Of a stretch of DNA of 64,000 bases, positions 10,250 to 59,290 are shown in pieces (the first letter of the stretch is position 1; every line of letters starts with the position of its first letter). This stretch comes from Anaerococcus marasmi (GTDB taxonomy: Bacteria; Bacillota; Clostridia; Tissierellales; Peptoniphilaceae). The position numbers were made by a program, and so were the translations under genes. The DNA is taken from positions 671,501 through 735,500 of the forward strand of contig NZ_OLMF01000004.1 in assembly GCF_900290195.1 (NCBI RefSeq), given 5' to 3'. The notes beneath the pieces were generated by a model. That model was given only the letters and a program-made list of their open reading frames with translations. It did not search any database and was not told the origin of the DNA.

Positions 10250-10822
10250 TTATAGGATTTCTCCTACAAGATTTCTTAGAGCCGTGAGAACTTCTTTCTC
10301 AAAGAAAGGATTCTTCGCCATCCACCTATTATTTAGGGGACTTGGGTGAACTAGAGGAAAATATTTAGGGAGATAGTCCTCAAAGGATTTTACAGTTTCA
10401 GTGAGATTCTTCTTAAAATTATCCTTTAGGTAAAATTTTTGTGAGTAAGCTCCTATAAGAATCGTAAGTTCTATGTTTTTAAGATTTTCTAGTAGATAGG
10501 GATGGTATTCCTTCGCTATAAATCTTCTAGGAGCCTTATCTCCCGACTTGCCCTTACCTGGATAATAAAAATCCATAGGAATTATGGAAAATTCCGGTCC
10601 ATGGAGTCTATCTATATCAATTCCAAGCCAGTCTACCAGTCTTTCACCACTCTTATCATTGAACAATATCCCTGTCTCTTCGACCTTTTTTCCAGGGGCT
10701 TGACCTATTATTAAAATCTTGGAATCTTTATTTATTTGAAAAATTGGATCAATTCCTCTTTTGCTGTAGGATTTATTTCTTTCGTCCTTTTTTAACTTCT
10801 CTTTTATTTGATTTATATTCAT
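10250..10822 (-). CDS. Uracil-DNA glycosylase family protein (no iron-sulfur ligands)
   Basis: This 190-residue protein has the superfamily motif 1 region LIIGQAPGKKVEETGILFNDKSGERLVDWLG (about 33-64) and motif 2 HPSPLNNRWMAKNPFF near residue 158. These place it in the COG1573-like branch of the uracil-DNA glycosylase superfamily, which removes damaged bases from DNA. There is no cysteine in the protein, so it cannot carry the 4Fe-4S cluster of family 4 and 5 enzymes. The ATG at 10822 is preceded by AAGGAG with 5-base spacing; an upstream in-frame TTG is too close to that site. It sits downstream of a terminator disrupted by repeat element A. Confidence 0.85.
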   Translation of the reverse strand: MNINQIKEKLKKDERNKSYSKRGIDPIFQINKDSKILIIGQAPGKKVEETGILFNDKSGERLVDWLGIDIDRLHGPEFSIIPMDFYYPGKGKSGDKAPRRFIAKEYHPYLLENLKNIELTILIGAYSQKFYLKDNFKKNLTETVKSFEDYLPKYFPLVHPSPLNNRWMAKNPFFEKEVLTALRNLVGEIL

Positions 10823-10840
10823 CAAAACTCCTTAAAGAAA

Positions 10841-11120
10841 AAGCAACTCCTGGGATTGCTTAAACTGTAGACATAATAAAAATCACCCTTATTTCGACCG
10901 GGTAAACATCCATTGATTTGGATATTTACCCCTCTGACTAGTGCGGAAGCACGGAAAAGTTACGAAGTAACTAGTCAGAGTACGGAGTGAGCGGAGAAAT
11001 CTAATGAGATCTCTCCATGCGTTCGTTTCACTCTCTTAGTCGAGATAAGGGTAAATTAAATATAAAATAAATATCAATTAAGCTACTTTACTACCCTATG
11101 AGCAACCCTTGGGATTGCTT
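10841..11120. repeat. Repeat element A: about 240-bp palindromic insert between two copies of a terminator hairpin
   Basis: Two direct copies of a terminator-like hairpin (10841-10861 and 11101-11120; 18 of 20 bases equal, core TGGGATTGCTT) flank a 239-bp insert. The insert has outer inverted arms ACCCTTATTTCGAC (10885-10898) and GTCGAGATAAGGGT (11039-11052), and an inner hairpin at 10993-11016. A second copy (57683-57881, opposite orientation) has the same arms, inner hairpin and flanking AT-rich sequence but is flanked by a different duplicated hairpin. The A-rich left and T-rich right sides suggest the target was a bidirectional terminator downstream of lepA. No gene is seen in the 349-base gap. 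Confidence 0.85.
10901..10980. repeat. 80-bp double-hairpin insertion inside element A
   Basis: Compared with the copy at 57683-57881, element A has 80 extra bases. They consist of GGTAAACATCC/GGATATTTACC (10901-10911 and 10920-10930) followed by the perfect 11-base inverted repeat CTCTGACTAGT/ACTAGTCAGAG (10932-10942 and 10970-10980). This looks like a smaller palindromic unit nested in the larger one. Confidence 0.7.
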
Positions 11121-11174
11121 TATTTTTACTTATTTCTTGATAACTTAGTATTATTTCTAAATCTTATAAACTTT

Positions 11175-12983
11175 CTATTCATCGTCTAATTTTAGGACAG
11201 CGAGGAAGGCATCTTGTGGAACTTCTACGTTTCCTAACTGACGCATTCTCTTCTTACCTTCTTTTTGTTTTTCAAGAAGCTTTTTCTTTCTTGAAATATC
11301 GCCGCCGTAGCATTTAGCTATAACGTCTTTTCTTAGAGCTCTTACAGTCTCTCTTGCTATAACCTTGCCACCAACTGCAGCTTGGATTGGCACTGCAAAT
11401 TGTTGTCTTGGAATCTCTTGCTTAAGCTTTTCTACAATTCCACGTCCTCTGGTATATGCGCTATCTCTGTGAACTATTAATGATAGGGCATCTACGGTCT
11501 GATCGTTAATTAATATATCAAGCTTTACAAGGTCAGACTTATCATAGCCTATTAGCTCATAGTCTAGGGAAGCATATCCCTTTGATCTTGATTTAAGCGA
11601 ATCAAAGAAATTATATATTACTTCATTTAAAGGAATCTTATACTTAATTGAAACCCTATTTTCATCTATATAGGTCATATCGATTAGCTCGCCCCTTCTC
11701 GATTGGGCAAGATCCATTACTTGACCTATATATTCTTTAGGGGTGATTATCTCAGATCTTGTAATTGGCTCTTCTATATAGTCTATCTCTGTTGGATCAG
11801 GGAAATCATTAGGGTTTTGTAGCTCTAACATTTTATCAGATCCCTTAAGTTTGACATCATAGATTACTGATGGGGCAGTCGCTATGATATCTAGGTCGTA
11901 TTCTCTCTCTAACCTTTGGGTTATGATATCCATATGGAGTAGTCCCAAAAAACCTGCCCTAAGACCAACACCCAAGGCTTGTGAGTTTTCTTGTTCAAAG
12001 ACTAGGGCCGCGTCATTTACTTGAAGTTTTTCAAGTGAATCACGTAGCTTATCAAAGCTTTCTCCTTCTGCTGGATAAATTCCAGAATATACCATAGGAA
12101 GAACTTCCTTGTAGCCAGATAGGGGCTTATCTGTAGGATTGGCAATAGTAGTTATTGTATCACCGACTCTAGCATCCTTTACTTCCTTGATGCTTGCTTC
12201 GATAAAACCTACATCACCGCTTCTAAGCTCTTTGGTGGCTATTCTTTGCTTCATAGTGTAGCCCACGGTATTTACTTCGTATTTTTTACCTGTATTCATC
12301 ATGACAATCTCATCACCAGGTCTTACTACACCTTCAAAGACTCTTACATAACAAATTACTCCTACATAAGAATCATAGTAAGAATCGAAGATTAAGGCCT
12401 TAAGTGGCTTATCGTCATGATCTTCTGGGGCTGGGACATTGGCTACGATATCTTCTAGGACATCTTCTATATTTAGTCCCGTCTTTGCAGAAATTTGTGG
12501 TGCATTACTAGCATCTAGTCCAATCTCGTTTTCTATTTCATTTTTTACTTCGTTAGGTCTTGCTGATGGTAAGTCGATTTTGTTAAGCACAGGTAAAATC
12601 TCTAGGTCTTGCTCTAAGGCAAGATAAGTATTTGCAAGAGTCTGAGCCTCAACTCCCTGACTTGCATCAACAACAAGAATTGCTCCCTCACACGCCTTAA
12701 GTGATCTTGAAACTTCATAATTAAAGTCGACGTGTCCAGGAGTATCTATTAGGTTTAGCTCGTAAACCTTGCCATCCTTGGCCTTGTAGTGGATTTTTAT
12801 TGACTTTAATTTTATTGTTATTCCTCTCTCTTGCTCTAGTTCCATATCATCGAGCATTTGGTTAGACATCTCTCTTTGTGATAGATTTTCACTTTTTTCT
12901 ATTAGTCTATCTGCAAGAGTGCTCTTACCGTGGTCGATATGGGCAATAATCGAGAAATTTCTAATATTTTCTTTCTTCTTCAT
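11175..12983 (-). CDS. lepA: Elongation factor 4 (LepA), back-translocating GTPase
   Basis: This 602-residue protein is the usual length for LepA. The G domain begins at once ([21 protein letters not shown]1) and continues with [10 protein letters not shown] (G2), DTPGHVDF (G3) and NKIDLPSA (G4). EF-G-like domains II, III and V follow, then the LepA-specific C-terminal domain ending in [29 protein letters not shown], which is diagnostic. It acts on the ribosome at low temperature or ionic stress. It lies 8 bases downstream of lepB with the same direction, the common lepB-lepA arrangement, and ends before element A. Confidence 0.98.
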
Positions 12984-50386: not shown

Positions 50387-50519
50387 TGGGAATTTTCCAC
50401 AAAATAAAATTTAATGTTCCATTTTGCTAATTATTTTAATTATGAGATAAATTTCACACTAGCTTGTGAAGAAATATTTTTTATTAGAAAAGATCTTATA
50501 ATTTTATCCATAGAAAAAA

Positions 50520-50670
50520 GGGCTGTTGCAGAATGAATAAATCGTACCAATATCATTAGAAGAACCTCCACGGAAATTTTGCCTCCATCAGCCGGCAGGC
50601 ATAACTAAAAATTTCCTAAGAGAACCTTCTAACGATGGTACGATGATTATTCATAGTTTTGCAACAGTCC
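50520..50670. repeat. Palindromic miniature element, copy 2
   Basis: The 151-bp unit is in inverse orientation to the one at 30485-30658. The left arm CTGTTGCAGAATGAATAAATCGTACC matches the right arm of copy 1 except for GTACC in place of GTTCC, and the opposite arm carries GGTAC in place of GGAAC, so pairing is kept. The right end reads GCAACAG. On the minus strand the hairpin is followed by CCCTTTTTTC, so it could act as terminator for the gene ending at 50682. Confidence 0.85.
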
Positions 50671-50681
50671 TTAAGAATTTA

Positions 50682-51764
50682 TTATTTTCTAACGAATTCT
50701 TTTGATTTTCTCTCACCAAGTCTACCAGCGTAAGCCGATACTACTAGGGCAAGTACAAGTCCTACAAATACAAGTACTGATCCAACTGATGCCTTGTTAG
50801 AAGCATCTTCTGCTCCTTCTTTGGCGCTTTCTACAGTTTCGTCAACCTTATCACTTGCTTCATTTGAAAGTCTTGTGATTTCTTCACTTGCATTGTTAAT
50901 TGTCTTTTCAGCTTCTGTTGAAGCATCTTGCAAGCCGTTGTAGATATTTTCTGAAACTTCACTAGCTTCTTCTTCTGTAAGGTCTGTGTTTTTAGAAACT
51001 GCATTATCAATTGCTTCCTTATCAGCAGAATCTGCTATAGTTTTTGCTCTTTCAGATAATGAATCTGTTAGATCTTTTATAATTTGATCCTTGTTTTCTG
51101 GGTTTACTGCTAAATCCTTAACTGCAGCTGTGATTTCATCTCTAGATTCTTGAAGTTGTCCTTCTAGATAATCTGGTTGAAGTTCAGCAACTTCTGTATC
51201 TGCTAGATATTTTTCTAGATTTCCTTGAAGTTCTTCTGTATCAACGTCTGAAATATTAGCTCCTGCTTTCTCAAGTGCTTTGCTTGCTGCATCTCCTGCA
51301 AAATTTGAAACAGATCCTACAACTTTACCTGCTGCATTTCCTGCAGTTCCAGCAACAGAACCTATTACATTTCCTGCCATTCCGAGTGCTGAGGCTACTG
51401 CGTTAAATACTAGTGTTATTAGTAGTAGGATAGTTACTGCCCAAGTTACAATTCCGTGAAGAAGACCAGTTGATCTTGCAGAATATCCTGCGACATATCC
51501 TCCTGCACAGAATGAAATGATTAAGGTAATGATTGTCCAAATACCTGTACCAATTCCAATTCCTGCCATTGGGTCAGCGCTTGTTGGTGCAAATAAACCA
51601 AATCCTAGTGCTGCTGTTAGTAAGCTTAGAACAGCAAATACTGCTGCTGCACTTACAGCACCTGCTATAATTGAGCCCCAAGATAAGTTTTTACCAGCTT
51701 GGATAGGACTTGTTTCTTGTTCATAAACAGCCCTATTAACTCTTCTGTTATTCTTTTCTGTCAT
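50682..51764 (-). CDS. Membrane protein with an acidic coiled-coil-like insert
   Basis: This 360-residue protein has three hydrophobic segments in the first 125 residues (NLSWGSIIAGAVSAAAVFAVLSLLTAALGFGLF, GTGIWTIITLIISFCAGGYVAGYSA, LLHGIVTWAVTILLLITLVFNAVASAL). A Gly/Ala-rich stretch and a long Ala/Glu/Asp-rich helical region (about 170-325) follow, then a last hydrophobic segment (about 328-347) with a basic end. The first half resembles PhnA-like or YrzE-like membrane proteins with GGYVAG motifs. The middle resembles amphipathic stress proteins. Function unknown. It ends 12 bases from the palindromic element. Confidence 0.75.
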   Translation of the reverse strand: MTEKNNRRVNRAVYEQETSPIQAGKNLSWGSIIAGAVSAAAVFAVLSLLTAALGFGLFAPTSADPMAGIGIGTGIWTIITLIISFCAGGYVAGYSARSTGLLHGIVTWAVTILLLITLVFNAVASALGMAGNVIGSVAGTAGNAAGKVVGSVSNFAGDAASKALEKAGANISDVDTEELQGNLEKYLADTEVAELQPDYLEGQLQESRDEITAAVKDLAVNPENKDQIIKDLTDSLSERAKTIADSADKEAIDNAVSKNTDLTEEEASEVSENIYNGLQDASTEAEKTINNASEEITRLSNEASDKVDETVESAKEGAEDASNKASVGSVLVFVGLVLALVVSAYAGRLGERKSKEFVRK

Positions 51765-51854
51765 TTTTCCTCCTTATGATGTCAAATCATTTTCAATATT
51801 AAATACATAAGCATTTTCTATGCTTGCTGTATTATTATACCCAATTTTATCAAT

Positions 51855-52778
51855 TTACCTACATTTTTTGTAAACTTCTTGTTCTCTAAGAATTTCAGAG
51901 ATCATATCTCTTCCCTTTTGCATTTTCTTTATATTTTTGATATCAAGTATTATAACATCATTTTTGATCAAATCATTTTTACTCTTATCTGTTAGATAAG
52001 AAGAGTTTATGATAAGAATTGGCCTTAGTCTAGTATCCATGTCAGAAATTTTTCCAATCATTTCTTTGATGAAATCCTCTTTTAAGTTTTTTTCATAATC
52101 ATAATTTTTGATTTCTATTGCAAATCGCTTATCCTTCTTCTTGGCATAAAGATCAAACCTATGGCTTCTTTCAAATTCTTCCTGGAAGGGCTCGACCCTG
52201 TAGCCAGATTTCCTAAAGGCCTTAGCAATGAATTCTTCCGTAGTAAAGTCTAGATTAATCTTTCTTAAAGCCTTCAAAAGATTGGTCGGATTTATCTTAA
52301 AGACTGCCCTATATTCGGTTATCTCTCCGAATCTTTTAATATCAAATCCAATGACAAGGTCATTTATCACATTGAAATTGCCGTGAGCTATGGCATTTCT
52401 TATATGACGTAAGAGGGCCATGGTCTTTGTTTCACTAGAATCAGCTAGGGTCATTATAAGCTTTTGCTCATCTACCCCAACCTTACCCTCGAATTTTTTC
52501 GCTAATTTTTCACTAATCTCCTCGGTAAAAAGCACATCTCTATCTTCTAATTTCATAGAAGCCATTATGTCTTTGAAGATATAATCGTCATATTCTGGGT
52601 TTAGGAGAAGCTCGTTTTCCTTGGCCTGCTCTGAAGTAATATTTGGCACATACCACAAGAGCATCTTTATGGCTTCATCTAAATCTGGACTTAGCTTTAT
52701 AGGAATTTCCTTATGTCTTATAGAAAAATCCATAAGTTTGCCAGTCTTATTTATTTCAAACTTATCTGTAATTTCCAT
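51855..52778 (-). CDS. Predicted two-nuclease protein: RX4H (HEPN-like) region plus PD-(D/E)XK domain
   Basis: This 307-residue protein has two parts. The helical N-terminal part (1-170) contains MALLRHIRNAIAHGNF (120-135) with the R127-X4-H132 pattern of HEPN-type RNases. The C-terminal part (about 178-290) is restriction-endonuclease-like: EEFIAKAFRKSGYRVEPF, then D209 in HRFDLYAKK and E222-I-K224 in FAIEIKNY, followed by LIINSSYLT, as in Mrr/PD-(D/E)XK folds. It follows the helicase gene by 49 bases in the same direction, with AAAGGTT before the ATG. It is probably the effector of the operon. Catalysis is inferred from motifs only. Confidence 0.72.
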   Translation of the reverse strand: MEITDKFEINKTGKLMDFSIRHKEIPIKLSPDLDEAIKMLLWYVPNITSEQAKENELLLNPEYDDYIFKDIMASMKLEDRDVLFTEEISEKLAKKFEGKVGVDEQKLIMTLADSSETKTMALLRHIRNAIAHGNFNVINDLVIGFDIKRFGEITEYRAVFKINPTNLLKALRKINLDFTTEEFIAKAFRKSGYRVEPFQEEFERSHRFDLYAKKKDKRFAIEIKNYDYEKNLKEDFIKEMIGKISDMDTRLRPILIINSSYLTDKSKNDLIKNDVIILDIKNIKKMQKGRDMISEILREQEVYKKCR

Positions 52779-52827
52779 CTTACAACCTTTCTTTTAGTAT
52801 CTACTAATATCTTACCCAAATACATAT

Positions 52828-54918
52828 TTATTTTTCTATCTTCAAATAATTATAGGATCCATCTAGGTCAAGTAAATTCCTTAAGATGTACCTTATCTTA
52901 AGATCTTCACTCACAAGGTCAATGTACTTATTTCCTAAAAGATAGGCACAGACAATTTTTGGATTATTTTGAAGATATGATATGATTTCACTTTCTAAAA
53001 CTGGATTTTTCCTAATTTCATTAAGCCTTTTTCTTATATTTTTCCCTCTTATGGTAGATGAGTAATCTGTTAGCTTGTAATTAGAAAGAGTAGATCTTAT
53101 ATTTAGCATAAGATTAATTGTCCTATTAATCCTTGTCCCACGAAAGGTCCTAAGGCCTTCTCCATCCTTATCGTTAATTAAATAGAAGCCTTCGGCATCT
53201 GGATTGGTCTTCAAGCTATCGATTACTCCATTGATTTTTTCGTTAAAGGAATATTTTGCTCTTTTCTCTATAATTTCTTCCATTTTTCTTCTAATCTCAT
53301 CAGATGTCTCTTTGTTAGTAGATGAGCTAAAGTCGGGCGCCTTGCCCTCTTCTGCCTTACTTACTATGATTTTTTTAGCCTTTAGATTAATAGATTCAAC
53401 CTGCCAAATGGATCCAGCCAGATAGAGCCCGTCTCCCTTCTTTAAGTCTATAGATTTTTCTATCTCTCCAATCTTCCCCTTTTCACTAAATACATGAAAA
53501 TTATCCTTCCTTATAAATTGATTGTAGAAAGATCCCATCTTGAGGAGCTTTTCGCATTCTCTTCCTCCTATATATTCATTTTCCAGTTTTTCTATATAAC
53601 CTTCCTCTACCATATGGGCAGTAATTTCCATAAATTCCTCATGGTTTATATCAAAGTCTAACTTCTTATACAGACTCACATAATCGTCGACACTTAATCC
53701 ATTTTTTTCTAATAGAGTAGATAGGATTTGATGGGCAAATACATCATAAGGGCTCTTTATAGGATCAATTTTATCAAGTCTTCCTTCCTTAAATAGGATA
53801 ATTGTCGCAAGCGACTGGACTAAGTCCCAAGGATTTGTAGCAATCTGATGGAGAATAGACTTCCCAGTTTTTCTGCCAGACCTTCCCAGCCTTTGGGCGA
53901 GAGATAGGACAGAATTTGTAGACCCATACTGACAAATCGAATAGACACTACCTATATCGATACCTAGCTCAAGGGTTGATGTCGCACAGATTATGAAATT
54001 TTCCCCATGTCTATTTTTAGCAAAGTTTTCTATTTCCTTTCTTCTTTGTTTGCTAACAGAAGAATGGTGGGAGAAGATTTGAGTCTTTATTTTATCTTCC
54101 CTAGCTTTCTTCTTAAGCTTTACGGCAAGCTCTTCGACAAGTTTTCTAGCGTTTGGAAAAGCAAGCATCGATCCTTCACTTGCAAAAGATAAAATTTGCC
54201 CAATCGTCTTATCGCTTATATGATCTTCCTCATTATAAGAAATCGTAGCCTCTAGCTCGTTTTTGGATGAGTCTACTATTAATTTAGTAGCCCTCTTATT
54301 TTTAAAAAAATTCTTACAAATATCGTAATTTAGATTTCCTACTGTTGCAGATAGGCCAATAAATCTCGGATTTTTATCAGTATAGGAAAGTATTCTCGTA
54401 AGAAGACTCTTAAGCTGGACACCCCTATTTCCAGTAAGAAAACTGTGGATTTCGTCGACTATTATATAATCTAATCCCCTAAATAATTTCTTAGCCGCAT
54501 GTCCCTTGTTTACAAAAATTGCCTCGAGAGATTCTGGAGTCATAAGACAAATTCCAGAAGGATTTTCCAATAATTTTTCTTTTTTCGTCTGATTGGCCTC
54601 ACCATGCCAGCTAGTAACATTAATACCAATATCATCACACATGGCGAGGACTCTCTCAAACTGATCGTTAATCAAGGCTATAAGTGGAGATATATAAAGA
54701 ATCCTAAGCCCCTTATCGAAGTCATTTGCTTCTGATATGGCAGGTAGAAAGGCTGCCTCAGTCTTGCCAGCTGCAGTTTTTGCTATGAGGACTAGATTGT
54801 CACAACTTTTCACGAAGTTTTCGATAGAAGCTTTCTGAATCTTGGTTAGACTTGGCCGCTTGTTTTTGTAGACGAACTCCCTCATAGGCCTTGATAATAG
54901 TGAATATGGATCTGTCAT
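52828..54918 (-). CDS. Lhr/BrxHI-type DEAD/DEAH-box helicase
   Basis: This 696-residue superfamily 2 helicase has Q-like TKIQKASIENFV, Walker A AKTAAGKTEAA (46-56), Walker B IIVDEIHSFL, motif III LSATVGN, and C-terminal RecA domain motifs IFSHHSSVSKQRR, ATSTLELGIDIGSV and QRLGRSGRK. This Lhr-like pattern is shared by BrxHI of BREX type 2 clusters. The C-terminal 250 residues are beta-rich and conserved in this group only loosely. Its start overlaps the ATPase gene by 4 bases (ATGA), so the two proteins are made together. All ATPase motifs look intact. Confidence 0.92.
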   Translation of the reverse strand: MTDPYSLLSRPMREFVYKNKRPSLTKIQKASIENFVKSCDNLVLIAKTAAGKTEAAFLPAISEANDFDKGLRILYISPLIALINDQFERVLAMCDDIGINVTSWHGEANQTKKEKLLENPSGICLMTPESLEAIFVNKGHAAKKLFRGLDYIIVDEIHSFLTGNRGVQLKSLLTRILSYTDKNPRFIGLSATVGNLNYDICKNFFKNKRATKLIVDSSKNELEATISYNEEDHISDKTIGQILSFASEGSMLAFPNARKLVEELAVKLKKKAREDKIKTQIFSHHSSVSKQRRKEIENFAKNRHGENFIICATSTLELGIDIGSVYSICQYGSTNSVLSLAQRLGRSGRKTGKSILHQIATNPWDLVQSLATIILFKEGRLDKIDPIKSPYDVFAHQILSTLLEKNGLSVDDYVSLYKKLDFDINHEEFMEITAHMVEEGYIEKLENEYIGGRECEKLLKMGSFYNQFIRKDNFHVFSEKGKIGEIEKSIDLKKGDGLYLAGSIWQVESINLKAKKIIVSKAEEGKAPDFSSSTNKETSDEIRRKMEEIIEKRAKYSFNEKINGVIDSLKTNPDAEGFYLINDKDGEGLRTFRGTRINRTINLMLNIRSTLSNYKLTDYSSTIRGKNIRKRLNEIRKNPVLESEIISYLQNNPKIVCAYLLGNKYIDLVSEDLKIRYILRNLLDLDGSYNYLKIEK

Positions 54919-56240
54919 AGGATAAAGATATCGTCGTCGTGATCATCAGGATCTTTTTCGACAGGACTTGTTAGACCCTGAAATTTACTTTCCAAGATTT
55001 GCTCTATACTTACTTCCGGATTCTGTCTTTTAAGATCTAGGATTTCAAGGAAGTCCTTGATTACAGCCCTAGGGGTAAGAAACTCCTTGGCTCCTGGTCT
55101 ATTGAGCTGTCCTTCCATGTATTTTATAATAGTTTCCTTATCCATGTGTATTTCTTCCCCGTAATTGATATTATAAATATTAAGGAGATTTTCAAGGAGG
55201 GTGAAAATTTCTTCTTCTGTTAGGGGTTTAAGTAAGAGAGCGGTCTTTTTAGTATTTATAAGGTCTGAGTCCTTATCGTAAAGCTCTCCAAGTCTTCCAG
55301 CAAGGGCCCCGTAGGAGCTCATTCCTCTAGACTCATCAAAGACTGTAGCCCTTGTAGCACCAAAGTTTATAAAAAGATTCTTGGCCCTTCCACTTTTGGT
55401 CTCGTTATAAATATTTAATATTCTCTCATAATTTCTCTGTCGAGTTACGGATTGGGCAAGCTTATAGAGATTGACCGCTTCATCAAAGTTAATCACAAAG
55501 CCAGAAAATCCAATTGAGCTAAAAAGCTCAGAAAGGTTTTTGATAGCTTCGAAGTAATTGTCGTCATTGATAATCTCTCCTATACCAAGCTCTCTTTTCG
55601 CCTCTGTCTTTGTTGAAATATCTCCCCTTAACCAACGAATGGCCTTAGTTTTAAGGTCTCTGTCATTACTAACAAGGCCTTCGTAATATTTTACAATAGC
55701 CTGACCCATCTCATAGGAAAGACCTACTGAGTCAAAATCTTCTATTGAGTCTAAGATTTTATCTTCTACAGCCTTCCTATATTCTCCCCTGATTAAATCT
55801 TTCATTTCCCATAGGTTTTCCTGGGATAGTTCAGTGAATATTTTCATTATCCACTCTTCAACAATCTCTCCTAGGACATTGCCAGTCCTTTTGGTTTTGG
55901 TCTTGATATTATCAGCAATTTCCCTGTAAAGGGCCTGGGCCTTCTTATCTGTTGCATAAAACCTCCTCTGTGGAGCGAGATCTATGGTAGATGTGACGAA
56001 GTTTTTGGATAAGGCAAGTTGCTCTATTGTGGCGAGCATAAAGGACTTACCTGAACCGAAGTCGCCTACCCACAATCTAAAATCACTTCCTCCCCTACTT
56101 ACTTCGTCTAATACTTCAATTATCTCTTCTACTTCAGAAAGCCTTCCTACAAGGAGGTGTTCTATCCCTATATTTGGCACAACACCTGCTTCTAGGGATT
56201 TGATTATCACTTGTGCTTGCTTCGGATTAATCTTTGCCAT
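54915..56240 (-). CDS. BrxD/DUF2791-type P-loop ATPase
   Basis: This 441-residue protein has an early GIEHLLVGRLSEVEEIIEVLDEVSRGGSDFRLWVGDFGSGKSFML region with Walker A at 59-66, a Walker B-like segment (FVINFDEAVNLYKLAQSV, about 245-262) and FINFGATRATVFDESRGMSSYGALAGRL. This is the pattern of the BREX ATP-binding family (BrxD, DUF2791). BrxD works with the Lhr-like helicase BrxHI in type 2 BREX. Here the helicase follows with a 4-base overlap and the upstream gene overlaps by 14 bases. No BREX methylase or PglZ is nearby. The acidic tail (EKDPDDHDDDIF) is unusual. Confidence 0.88.
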   Translation of the reverse strand: MAKINPKQAQVIIKSLEAGVVPNIGIEHLLVGRLSEVEEIIEVLDEVSRGGSDFRLWVGDFGSGKSFMLATIEQLALSKNFVTSTIDLAPQRRFYATDKKAQALYREIADNIKTKTKRTGNVLGEIVEEWIMKIFTELSQENLWEMKDLIRGEYRKAVEDKILDSIEDFDSVGLSYEMGQAIVKYYEGLVSNDRDLKTKAIRWLRGDISTKTEAKRELGIGEIINDDNYFEAIKNLSELFSSIGFSGFVINFDEAVNLYKLAQSVTRQRNYERILNIYNETKSGRAKNLFINFGATRATVFDESRGMSSYGALAGRLGELYDKDSDLINTKKTALLLKPLTEEEIFTLLENLLNIYNINYGEEIHMDKETIIKYMEGQLNRPGAKEFLTPRAVIKDFLEILDLKRQNPEVSIEQILESKFQGLTSPVEKDPDDHDDDIFIL

Positions 56241-57609
56241 CTATAATCTCCTTAATCATTTCTAGATAGAAAGAATCTATAATTATCTTTCCATCTTCAT
56301 TTACCAAAGTCTGATCGTCTATATAATCAAACAATTCATCATTTATATCTCCTATAAAAGAATTGAGGATTTTCCCCTCTTCTAGGGCGATTTCACTAGC
56401 CACATCTTCTCTAACCGATCCATTTTTAAGGATCAATTTAAGAAAGTTCCTGCTAGCCTCGCTTATAGAAATGTCCTCATCTTCTTTGTCGTCTTTGTTA
56501 TATTCATTTATGTTTACATGATCTCTAAGAGCTTCTTCCTTATGGCTACTATCTTCTATATCTTTTTTGCTATCAGCCAAAAAGTCTTCGACTATGCTTA
56601 CTGTTTCATGAAGATCCTTCCTTGATGAAGAAAGCTTGGCCCCATCGATTTGAATCCTCTTTTTAGGCTTCTTATCGAGTCTTAGAATTTCATCTATAAG
56701 CTCAATTGACATATCCCTCGTCTCTATAAGTTTAATAAATTGGTCATAATTTTCTTCATGAATAATCTCTAAGACCTTATTTTTATCTTTATTTAAAATT
56801 TTTCCGTCATTAAATAAATAATAAAAGCCCAGGGCCTTGGTCGGAGGAAAATCTGAATTGCTTAAATTTCTAGAAAGCTTTTCCATATCGACGAGGTCCT
56901 TATGGCCTTCAACGAAGCTTATTTGCTTACTTATATCAGCTTCTAGAATATAAGAGGTCCAATCTTTTAATTTGTTTGGATTTGCTAGAAGATAGTTTTC
57001 AAAAATTTCTTCTTTTCTTAAGACATCAATGTCTCTATAGTAAGAATCCAACTCTTTTAAGAAAAAGTCCAACAAGTTTCTAGAATCATTTTTTTCTAAG
57101 ACTTCTACTTGTTTACTAGAATCTATTTTAGCAAAAATCCAAAAGTATTCCCTAAACTTTTTCTCTGTTACTAGAAGGAGGGCTTCAAGGATAGATTCCG
57201 AAAGGGTGTAGGGACTTGTGTATTTTCTAATTTTTTCTGTATCTTGGCTTTTTTCATCTAGGGCCTTTTTAAGAATAGTCAAATAGGCTTCTACGACTAA
57301 GTCTCTGGAATCTTTATTAGACCATACTTGATTGAACCTTCGATTAACTTGACCTATCAGTTTCATATCTTCTCTCTTATAGGAAAGCTTATCTAAAAGA
57401 CCCTTATATTCTGACCAAAAGCCCAAATAATTATCTGAGTCCTTATATGAAACATTTCTAGGACTTTCTTTCTTTTTATCTTCAATATGAAAATTAAATT
57501 CTACCTTGCCTAGTTTTCTCTTATAAGTTTTTTTCCTATCCTTCTTATCAATTGTCGATAGGTCTTTAAGCAAACCATCAATCAAATCCACTACGTCATC
57601 AATCTTCAT
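56227..57609 (-). CDS. TerB-C-like protein, first gene of the ATPase-helicase operon
   Basis: This 460-residue, highly charged protein is mostly helical. The first 60 residues are Lys/Asp-rich. The middle shows repeated acidic helices without motif. The last 80 residues (SEASRNFLKLILKNGSVREDVASEIALEEGKILNSFIGDINDELFDYIDDQTLVNEDGKIII) resemble the TerB-C domain, which ends many TerB-linked proteins in stress and defence loci. The N-terminal TerB domain itself is not recognised. It overlaps the BrxD-type ATPase gene by 14 bases. It may be an adaptor or sensor; that is inference. Confidence 0.6.
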   Translation of the reverse strand: MKIDDVVDLIDGLLKDLSTIDKKDRKKTYKRKLGKVEFNFHIEDKKKESPRNVSYKDSDNYLGFWSEYKGLLDKLSYKREDMKLIGQVNRRFNQVWSNKDSRDLVVEAYLTILKKALDEKSQDTEKIRKYTSPYTLSESILEALLLVTEKKFREYFWIFAKIDSSKQVEVLEKNDSRNLLDFFLKELDSYYRDIDVLRKEEIFENYLLANPNKLKDWTSYILEADISKQISFVEGHKDLVDMEKLSRNLSNSDFPPTKALGFYYLFNDGKILNKDKNKVLEIIHEENYDQFIKLIETRDMSIELIDEILRLDKKPKKRIQIDGAKLSSSRKDLHETVSIVEDFLADSKKDIEDSSHKEEALRDHVNINEYNKDDKEDEDISISEASRNFLKLILKNGSVREDVASEIALEEGKILNSFIGDINDELFDYIDDQTLVNEDGKIIIDSFYLEMIKEIIDGKD

Positions 57610-57682
57610 AAGCCCTCCTTCAAAATCCTCTTCTTACCATTATACTTCTTTGTAAGATTTATCTTTTATATAAGGACACAAA

Positions 57683-57881
57683 AAAGCTGGCAAAGCCAGC
57701 TCAGAAGATAGACAAAGAAGATTTAGCTTAGATTTATTCTATAGTTAAGTTACCTTTATCTCGACTAAGAGAGTGAAACGAACGCATGGAGAGATCTCAT
57801 TAGATTTCTCCACTCACTCCGTTCGGTCGAAATAAGGGTCAATTTGATTTTGACTACAGTCTAAAGCTGGCAAAGCCAGCT
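57683..57881. repeat. Repeat element B: 161-bp palindromic insert between two identical terminator hairpins
   Basis: AAAGCTGGCAAAGCCAGCT occurs at 57683-57701 and again at 57863-57881, each a hairpin (AGCTGGC/GCCAGCT). Between them lies a 161-bp insert that matches, in reverse, the insert of element A (10862-11100) except for the 80-bp double hairpin there: same arms (GTCGAAATAAGGGT and ATCTCGAC), same inner hairpin. On the minus strand the full T-run follows only the hairpin at 57683-57701. The 299-base gap 57610-57908 contains nothing else recognised. Confidence 0.87.
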
Positions 57882-57908
57882 AATCAAGATAATATTTAAA
57901 AGCAAATC

Positions 57909-58769
57909 TTACTTGTCCATACTTTTCGATAGGATTTTCTCCATTGATAGGTCAACTGAGGACCTATACATATTTCCAAACTTATGAAGGTGGACCATAA
58001 GGAGGTAAAGTCTATAAAACTCAAGCCTTATAGCCCTTTCAGGATCTTTTTTAATATCTTGTAGATAAGTCCTGTAGAAATCATCATCAAAGCCAGAAAA
58101 CACTGTACTTACTCCGATATCAAACTCCCAATCTCCATATAGGGGAGCTGGATCGAAAAGATAAGGATCTCCATCAACAGAAAACATGGCATTGCCGGGC
58201 CACAAATCTCCATGAAGGAGGACGGGCGCACTTTCTCGTCTTCTAAGATAAGTATCTATCACTTCTCTGATCTTTTCGTAAGTAGCTAAATCTTCCCTAG
58301 ACCAAATTCCTCCTTCTACTAGCTTATCTTTGAGCTTATCTAATCTTTCTTCTAGGAAAACTTCCCTCCAGTTATCCTTAAAGGCATTGGAAAAGGAAAT
58401 AGAAGACCCACGATAGGCAAATTCAAAGCCGAACTTGCCATTAGGGCTTTCGATTTTATGAACTTTTTTAAGTTCTCTAGCAAGGTCTTTCTGATCTTGC
58501 CATCTACCTTCTTCTATATAATCTAAAATGAGATAAGCTCCCTCTTTACTTACTCCACTATCCAAAACCCTAGGGGCATTTACTCCGTTTTTTTCAAAAA
58601 GCTTAAGACCTTTTATTTCTGCCTGGAAGAAATTATTGTCTCCTCCCCTTTGGATTAGAAGAAAACGTGGCCCCTTGTCTGTGTATACCTTAAAGGCCTC
58701 GTTCACATCTCCTCCCCTGACACTTCTTATATCATAAGCTCCATCTATATTTATATCTAAATCTATCAC
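57909..58769 (-). CDS. Fructosamine kinase / APH-fold family protein
   Basis: This 286-residue protein has the fructosamine-3-kinase pattern: FLLIQRGGDNNFFQAEIKGLKLFEKNGVNAPRVL, then LILDYIEEG, the catalytic loop VLLHGDLWPGNAMFSVDG and YLFDPAPLYGDWEFDIGVSTVF. It should phosphorylate a sugar amine or similar small molecule (deglycation repair in characterised members). The GTG at 58769 follows AGAGGTGAT; the longer open frame reaches back through the terminator of the marR gene and is rejected. It is last before repeat element B. Confidence 0.9.
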   Translation of the reverse strand: MIDLDINIDGAYDIRSVRGGDVNEAFKVYTDKGPRFLLIQRGGDNNFFQAEIKGLKLFEKNGVNAPRVLDSGVSKEGAYLILDYIEEGRWQDQKDLARELKKVHKIESPNGKFGFEFAYRGSSISFSNAFKDNWREVFLEERLDKLKDKLVEGGIWSREDLATYEKIREVIDTYLRRRESAPVLLHGDLWPGNAMFSVDGDPYLFDPAPLYGDWEFDIGVSTVFSGFDDDFYRTYLQDIKKDPERAIRLEFYRLYLLMVHLHKFGNMYRSSVDLSMEKILSKSMDK

Positions 58770-58796
58770 ATTATCACCTCTTATAACTTTTACCCA

Positions 58797-58828
58797 AAAT
58801 AAAAAGCCATACCAGCATCGCTGATATG
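58797..58828 (-). terminator. Terminator after the MarR-family gene
   Basis: CATATCAGC, loop, GCTGGTATG on the minus strand (58808-58828, one wobble), followed by a T-rich run. It lies between the marR and fructosamine-kinase genes. Confidence 0.8.
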
Positions 58829-58834
58829 ACGTTT

Positions 58835-59290
58835 TCATTCAAATGATTTGATCTTACGTTCTTGCCAATCTAGAGTATATTCAACCAATTGATCTAGGAC
58901 TTTTGTATAGATTTCTATATCCCTATCGGAAATCTTATTTGTGGCTTCTTTGACGAATTCTTTCGTGACCTGAGATATTTCAGAAAACTTGTCTTCGCCC
59001 TTGTTTGTAAGACTGATTGTCTTTCTTCTCATGTCTTCCTTGTCTGGCTTACGCACTATCAATCCATCTCTTTCCATTCTTTCTAATAGGCCTGTCATAG
59101 TTGATTCTCTAATATTCATCTTTTTGGCCAAATCTTTTTGATTGGTTGAACCGTCTAAATCTATGTAGTACAAAGCAATACATTGACTTCTAGTAAGTCC
59201 ATATTTTAAAACAACATTATTAAAAGCATCGTTCATAGACTTAGCAGCTATTGCTGTTGCAACTGGCAAATATTCTTCAAATCTCGCCAT
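58835..59290 (-). CDS. MarR-family transcriptional regulator
   Basis: This 151-residue winged-helix protein has the MarR pattern: YGLTRSQCIALYYIDLDGSTNQKDLAKKMNIRESTMTGLLERMERDGLIVRKPDKEDMRRKTISLTNKGEDKF, with the recognition helix near 67-80 and the wing DMRRK. It should bind as a dimer to a palindromic operator and respond to a small ligand. The ATG at 59290 after GAAAGGAGAG is chosen over an open-frame start at 59314. A palindrome overlapping its predicted transcription start suggests autoregulation. Neighbouring targets are not obvious. Confidence 0.93.
   Translation of the reverse strand: MARFEEYLPVATAIAAKSMNDAFNNVVLKYGLTRSQCIALYYIDLDGSTNQKDLAKKMNIRESTMTGLLERMERDGLIVRKPDKEDMRRKTISLTNKGEDKFSEISQVTKEFVKEATNKISDRDIEIYTKVLDQLVEYTLDWQERKIKSFE

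Follow-up and report, generated by a model that had tools for sequence, protein, structure and literature searches.

A predicted three-gene Shango operon directly in front of a HEPN-Mrr core gene in Anaerococcus marasmi

The question raised by this locus is whether four adjoining genes on one strand make up a new defence system. The stretch analysed here (the window) comprises 64,000 nt of contig NZ_OLMF01000004.1 of Anaerococcus marasmi and carries a block of four minus-strand open reading frames (ORFs) of 460, 441, 696 and 307 amino acids (aa). The first and second ORFs overlap by 14 bases and the second and third by 4 bases, while 49 bases separate the third from the fourth. An initial annotation had described this layout, which agrees exactly with the ORF coordinates, and had proposed a new four-gene system with the last gene, encoding a HEPN/PD-(D/E)XK protein, as its effector. 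This proposal is not supported, since the fourth gene does not travel with the other three, and a false new system is thereby removed from the list. With high confidence, the block is read here as a three-gene operon of the anti-phage system Shango at one chromosomal place in Anaerococcus, directly before a core gene that lies outside the system. The four genes are as follows.

56227..57609, minus strand: sngA, encoding an SngA-like protein of 460 aa with a TerB-C domain at residues 312-452 (Pfam TerB_C, PADLOC SngA, alignment of 11 SngA)
54915..56240, minus strand: sngB, encoding an AAA+ ATPase of the BrxC/BrxD family, 441 aa (Pfam, PADLOC SngB)
52828..54918, minus strand: sngC, encoding a superfamily 2 (SF2) helicase of the Lhr/BrxHI kind, 696 aa (PADLOC SngC)
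51855..52778, minus strand: HEPN plus Mrr-like gene (HEPN-Mrr), 307 aa, a genus core gene and a neighbour rather than a component of Shango (genus and family distribution, motifs)

Identification of the Shango genes

For the first three genes, the protein kinds named in the initial annotation were borne out by Pfam, with TerB_C in the first protein (41.5 bits; cut-off 26.3), BrxC_BrxD in the second (406.9 bits; cut-off 22.2) and DEAD (112.7 bits) and Helicase_C (53.9 bits) in the third, in which WH_Lhr scored just below its cut-off (24.8 against 27). In the fourth, Mrr_cat is over cut-off and an R-N-x3-H motif is visible. The first three proteins also match the PADLOC models of SngA (3.5e-16, 57.9 bits, model positions 183-527 of 528), SngB (2.6e-142, 473 bits) and SngC (1.2e-163, 544.6 bits), and the order sngA-sngB-sngC on one strand is kept in the window and in 18/18 other loci of the genus. 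Shango is presented in PMC10250203 as a three-gene TerB, helicase and ATPase anti-phage system, which in Pseudomonas lowered the plating of many, not all, phages, and modestly so (10 to 100-fold); an earlier Shango finding in E. coli is cited there. As their number, order and kinds (TerB-family domain, AAA+ ATPase, SF2 helicase) agree with those of Shango and all three models are matched, genes 1 to 3 of the block are, judged from their sequences, a copy of this already described system. They differ from it in SngA, which is divergent, has TerB_C without TerB_N in Pfam and is short in the clade of the window. An anti-phage role of this copy is predicted from its family membership. Genome-wide defence catalogues may already hold Anaerococcus Shango; what is recorded here is Shango with a divergent SngA at a shared place in the genus.

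The initial annotation had likened the second and third proteins to BrxD and BrxHI of type 2 BREX. This recall was sound, since the BrxD model (149.6 bits) and the BrxHI model (377.6 bits) rank second in PADLOC for SngB and SngC, respectively, and since SngC is grouped with BrxHI, DruE and DpdJ in PMC12278908. The homologous ATPase and helicase in tandem, matching both models, could thus be regarded as what is left of a type 2 BREX cluster after the loss of PglX, PglZ and the rest. However, the model scores favour Shango for both proteins, SngB falls far below the cut-off of the NCBIfam BrxD equivalog NF033438 (147.6 bits of 350), and a TerB-C gene stands in front, with the three genes in order at every Shango locus of the genus. 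A BREX remnant was rejected on the model scores and appears highly improbable. A scan limited to nine ORFs of the block and its surroundings, and not extended over the whole window, detected no PglX, PglZ, PglW or BrxC/PglY and no other BREX gene. The claim of a defence-type operon resembling the BrxD/BrxHI pair is supported, but the system is the published three-gene Shango rather than BREX.

Among the open-access literature consulted, no published mechanism for Shango was seen. In BREX, BrxD may load or activate BrxHI, according to PMC12839542. By analogy, SngB, an AAA+ ATPase of the BrxD kind, would load or gate the BrxHI/Lhr-like helicase SngC on invading DNA, while SngA, through its TerB-C domain, could hold the complex together as a scaffold or act as a sensor that relays a signal; phage DNA replication or expression would then be blocked.

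Distribution and inheritance within Anaerococcus

All genus counts refer to a sample of 31 genomes judged to be Anaerococcus, in which G and L numbers label genomes and fetched stretches (L031 being G021); ORFs of at least 70 aa were called on stretches from the 18 other Shango genomes and from 12 genomes without Shango. Two genes that frame the site in the window are needed for the comparison.

57909..58838, minus strand: fructosamine kinase gene, flanking the window's Shango site on its upstream side (Pfam scan, genus comparison)
50682..51764, minus strand: membrane protein gene, adjoining HEPN-Mrr on the downstream side (matches in 30/31 genus genomes)

SngB is present in 19 of the 31 genomes and HEPN-Mrr in all 31, including the 12 without SngB, and the neighbouring membrane protein gene is matched in all but one. 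This distribution deprives both the four-gene system and the role of the HEPN/PD-(D/E)XK gene as its effector of support. In all 19 Shango genomes the operon shares its strand with HEPN-Mrr and lies upstream of it at a distance of at most 10 kb. HEPN-Mrr follows sngC directly in only five of them (the window, G004, G006, G005 and G021), and in the remaining 14 two or more genes intervene; among nine proteins from the intervening region and its G010 counterpart, a Pfam scan recognised transglutaminase-like, macro-domain, FtsX-type permease and pirin proteins. Genes for S41, histidine kinase and response regulator proteins occur near HEPN-Mrr in 12/12 Shango-less genomes, with the membrane protein gene between in 11/12. 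In G022 and G026, which lack SngB, 61 bases separate the fructosamine kinase gene from HEPN-Mrr, where the window carries Shango, and in G010, also without Shango, a pirin gene lies between the two. This upstream flank varies more, the kinase gene being present in 15/19 Shango genomes and in 3/12 others; the nine other Shango-less genomes have different genes upstream of HEPN-Mrr. A fixed place in related genomes, which the initial annotation had considered as contrary to its proposal, was thus found in part: every Shango locus shares the position upstream of HEPN-Mrr, but 12 of the 31 genomes have no Shango there.

In a midpoint-rooted HEPN-Mrr tree, for which 95/80 served as the support mark, the 19 Shango genomes all fall on one side of a 9/22 split (support 100/100), and the three negatives on that side, G010, G022 and G026, group next to the clade of the window (97/92). 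The five genomes with direct adjacency form one group with a support of 89/90, short of the mark. One gain and one loss of Shango would do to produce the pattern. Genome pairs that are further apart in HEPN-Mrr are also further apart in SngB, SngC and SngA (Spearman 0.66, 0.73 and 0.73, respectively, over non-independent pairs), as expected from long residence. The ratio of nonsynonymous to synonymous substitution rates (dN/dS), computed for the window against the two relatives closest to it, was 0.04-0.07 for HEPN-Mrr, 0.08-0.09 for SngB, 0.13 for SngC and 0.18-0.22 for SngA; these values are rough, with dS of 0.5 to 1.3, and against L030 dS was not computable for the four genes. HEPN-Mrr is inherited with its own locus.

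The HEPN-Mrr protein

The fourth protein carries R-N-A-I-A-H at residues 127-132, and its R127, N128 and H132 are invariant in 31/31 genus copies; we take this R-N-x3-H (R-x4-H) arrangement to be the HEPN pattern. Pfam HEPN scores below cut-off in the window protein (16.6 bits; cut-off 26.6) and is matched by 26/30 aligned orthologues at E <= 0.05 (best 3.2e-5), and Mrr_cat, with 29.6 bits in the window protein (cut-off 21), is matched by 6/30 at the same threshold. The D...ExK set is intact in only three of the 31 genus copies (the window, G005 and G021), which weakens the idea of a nuclease effector; elsewhere it is altered to ExR (15 copies), E...DxK (9), ExL/I (3) or KxK (1). The G021 copy ends early, an in-frame stop cutting off about the last 35 residues. 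The protein thus shares the invariant R-N-x3-H with HEPN ribonucleases (RNases) and, in the window, an Mrr_cat domain over cut-off with Mrr-type restriction endonucleases, but unlike either it combines both in one protein, mostly with an altered D...ExK set, and it is encoded by a chromosomal genus core gene, for which phage and plasmid records gave no match. A fusion of HEPN and Mrr is not named as a unit in Pfam, PADLOC or NCBIfam. A search of solved structures by sequence gave one chance-like match (E 0.041), and the model predicted from three sequences was poor, with a mean predicted local distance difference test (pLDDT) score of 46.4.

The fourth gene probably encodes a HEPN ribonuclease under strong constraint, and its Mrr-fold domain has lost the standard catalytic residues in most relatives and may bind nucleic acid. 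The presence of the gene in all genus genomes, including those without SngB, leaves the effector reading unsupported, and an RNase acting alone is likelier; a stress response and single-gene defence are candidate roles. Found in every genus genome examined and matched in 36 other genomes of the family, this gene is the part of the locus worth a look.

A second, distant HEPN-Mrr copy (32-33% identity) occurs at another place in G002, G016 and G019.

The element upstream of HEPN-Mrr

A short element precedes the HEPN-Mrr gene in the window.

52808..52819, minus strand: TTGGGTAAGATA element 5' of the HEPN-Mrr gene, a candidate promoter element of its own (motif match; TGGGTA also there in 10/12 Shango-less genomes)

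The window has two exact matches to TTGGGTAwrATA, one at 52808-52819 upstream of HEPN-Mrr and one at 51833-51844 upstream of the membrane protein gene; when one mismatch is allowed the count is three, no more than expected by chance (mean 2.4). Its core TGGGTA was counted from 120 bases before to 30 after the start of each ORF, an ORF being one row, with six genomes covered by two stretches and a few double counts possible. It appeared in 13/32 HEPN-Mrr rows, 7/25 membrane-protein rows and 3/18 kinase rows, together 23/75, versus 7/497 other rows. Before HEPN-Mrr it is present in 8/9 genomes of the deep Shango-less group and in G022 and G026, not in G010, and within the clade of the window in the window itself, G004 and G006 (stretches L028 and L029). 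In these three genomes HEPN-Mrr therefore keeps, right behind sngC, its Shango-less upstream element, and it may have a promoter of its own. In most other genomes the upstream gene ends too close to HEPN-Mrr for such an element.

A stress regulon behind the TGGGTA element is possible. The genome encodes a SigB/F/G-type sigma factor (246.1 bits; cut-off 234.35), preceded by two small genes that by eye are presumably rsbV and rsbW, but neither the window nor the 7.5 kb at the sigma factor gene gave a GTTT-spaced SigB-type match for the element.

Several points weigh against a Shango operon set before an independently controlled core gene. The match of SngA to its PADLOC model is weak (57.9 bits) and has no TerB_N match in Pfam beside it, and the mechanism outlined above is drawn from BREX relatives. 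The kinase flank occurs in only three Shango-less genomes, so that a true comparison with both flanks present is limited to these three. Of the five genomes of the window's clade, three retain the upstream element, which is missing in G005 and G021 (L030 and L031), and the count of promoter-like sites in the region does not exceed that in shuffles (29 versus 28.9), so that own control of HEPN-Mrr is suggested at most. Moreover, a pattern scan of the 49 bases between sngC and HEPN-Mrr found no terminator-like site, and only 3 bases separate the two genes in L030; read-through from sngC is therefore possible.

Divergence of SngA and possible recruitment of HEPN-Mrr

SngA measures 453-473 aa in the five genomes of the window's clade and 556-583 aa in the other 14 Shango genomes of the genus; in an alignment of 11 SngA, the short forms are without a block of about 110 residues that the longer Anaerococcus forms have. 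Pfam TerB_N was not found in the five genus SngA scanned (the window, L030, L031, L032 and L033) nor in L046 and L047, but all three SngA scanned from more distant members of the phylum have it (L132, L137 and L138). A structure predicted from six SngA sequences reached a pLDDT of 69.8 and gave no Foldseek match in PDB at E <= 0.001.

It is conceivable, if unlikely, that the clade of the window recruited HEPN-Mrr as a fourth component, the helicase-ATPase pair sensing foreign DNA and switching on the HEPN RNase. An old chromosomal RNase would then have been captured as a Shango effector after loss of the intervening genes, with SngA shedding its block of about 110 residues, a course of events to which we likewise give little credence. 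Direct adjacency in all five genomes of the clade, down to 3 bases in L030, the short SngA of the same five and the low dN/dS of HEPN-Mrr against two relatives are consistent with such a capture, which, if true, would show a defence system just as it acquires a fourth component. However, one clade amounts to one event, and a moderately supported one (89/90); 12 genomes have HEPN-Mrr but no SngB; the upstream element of Shango-less genomes persists in the window, L028 and L029; and the clade member L031 has the in-frame stop described above.

Two further SngA variants were seen. In L046 (G050, of the same order), SngA at 10374-12494 on the minus strand has an N-terminal TM2 membrane domain, which suggests a membrane-bound Shango variant, and the SngA of L137 (1431 aa) and L138 (1230 aa) are very long, the part in front of TerB_N, about 900 and 640 residues, respectively, having no Pfam match at E <= 0.01.

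Distribution outside the genus

Searches covered 249 genomes of the order, 130 of the family and a sample of 398 of the phylum. The HEPN-Mrr profile matched 67/249 order genomes, which belong to a single family and comprise the 31 genus genomes and 36 others. Thirteen of these 36 matches have a stop codon inside the matched stretch, and in the three such cases looked at (L153, L159 and L168) the HEPN-Mrr ORF is still 301-304 aa long. SngB was matched in 26/130 family genomes, 19 of the genus and seven others. The 36 HEPN-Mrr genomes and the seven SngB genomes of the family outside the genus do not overlap; as only 2.5 of 99 would be expected to overlap by chance, this is weak evidence alone, and that both profiles were run on every family genome is taken from the group sizes. 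In the 20 of the 36 non-genus HEPN-Mrr stretches that were viewed, no SngA, SngB or SngC match was found (L162 ends at a contig edge, with its HEPN-Mrr ORF uncalled). Across the phylum sample, SngB matched 50/398 genomes, some weakly or partially, and HEPN-Mrr matched three, of which two belong to the same family and the third is a weak, partial match. No HEPN-Mrr match was found within about 7 kb of the best-scoring 20 of the 50 phylum Shango loci, a search made with the close HEPN-Mrr profile only and not for other nucleases (L140 and L147 end before the downstream side).

Rare adjacency of the fourth gene in other genomes, which the initial annotation had named as speaking against its system, is thus largely what was observed. 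The gene adjoins Shango in 5/19 Shango genomes of the genus, all of one clade, it has no match in the 20 phylum stretches, two of which end before the downstream side, and all seven SngB-bearing family genomes outside the genus are absent from its match list. Adjacency in a single genome can mislead, as a core gene behind a variable site resembles a part of whatever occupies that site.

The shared place and the apparently long residence of the three genes within the 22-genome group might also fit a housekeeping DNA-repair operon without a defence role. Against this stand the absence of SngB from 12/31 genus genomes and its patchy matches in the family and the phylum, ATPases related to SngB on 688 plasmid records (all under 60% identity) and the anti-phage activity of Shango published in PMC10250203; a repair operon is accordingly considered quite improbable, and Shango remains the preferred identity of the three genes.

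HEPN-Mrr itself was also considered as phage or plasmid cargo. This was rejected, with no match at the sensitivity used in viral contigs (pattern-based scan), phage records or plasmid records (tblastn, E 1e-5).

Repeats and flanking genes

The remaining features lie on either side of the block.

50515..50675, no strand assigned: palindromic dispersed repeat resembling a miniature inverted-repeat transposable element (MITE) (42 matches in the genome)
57675..57890, no strand assigned: repeat of a second dispersed family (44 genome matches)
57684..57702, minus strand: terminator-like hairpin between the fructosamine kinase gene and sngA (pattern match only)

Folded as DNA, the palindrome at 50518-50672, of about 155 bases, lies far outside chance expectation (z -9.3), and full-length copies of this MITE-like repeat occur elsewhere in the genome at up to 96% identity. 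Many of the 42 and 44 matches are partial, and the palindrome matches itself on both strands, so that the places are fewer than the counts. The initial annotation had seen in the flanking palindromes the bounds of a movable cassette; as both repeats are dispersed families scattered over the genome, they mark no cassette, and this idea was rejected.

On the other side of sngA, the fructosamine kinase gene occurs, like Shango, only within the 22-genome group (18/22 genomes, 0/9 others), and the two may share a history.

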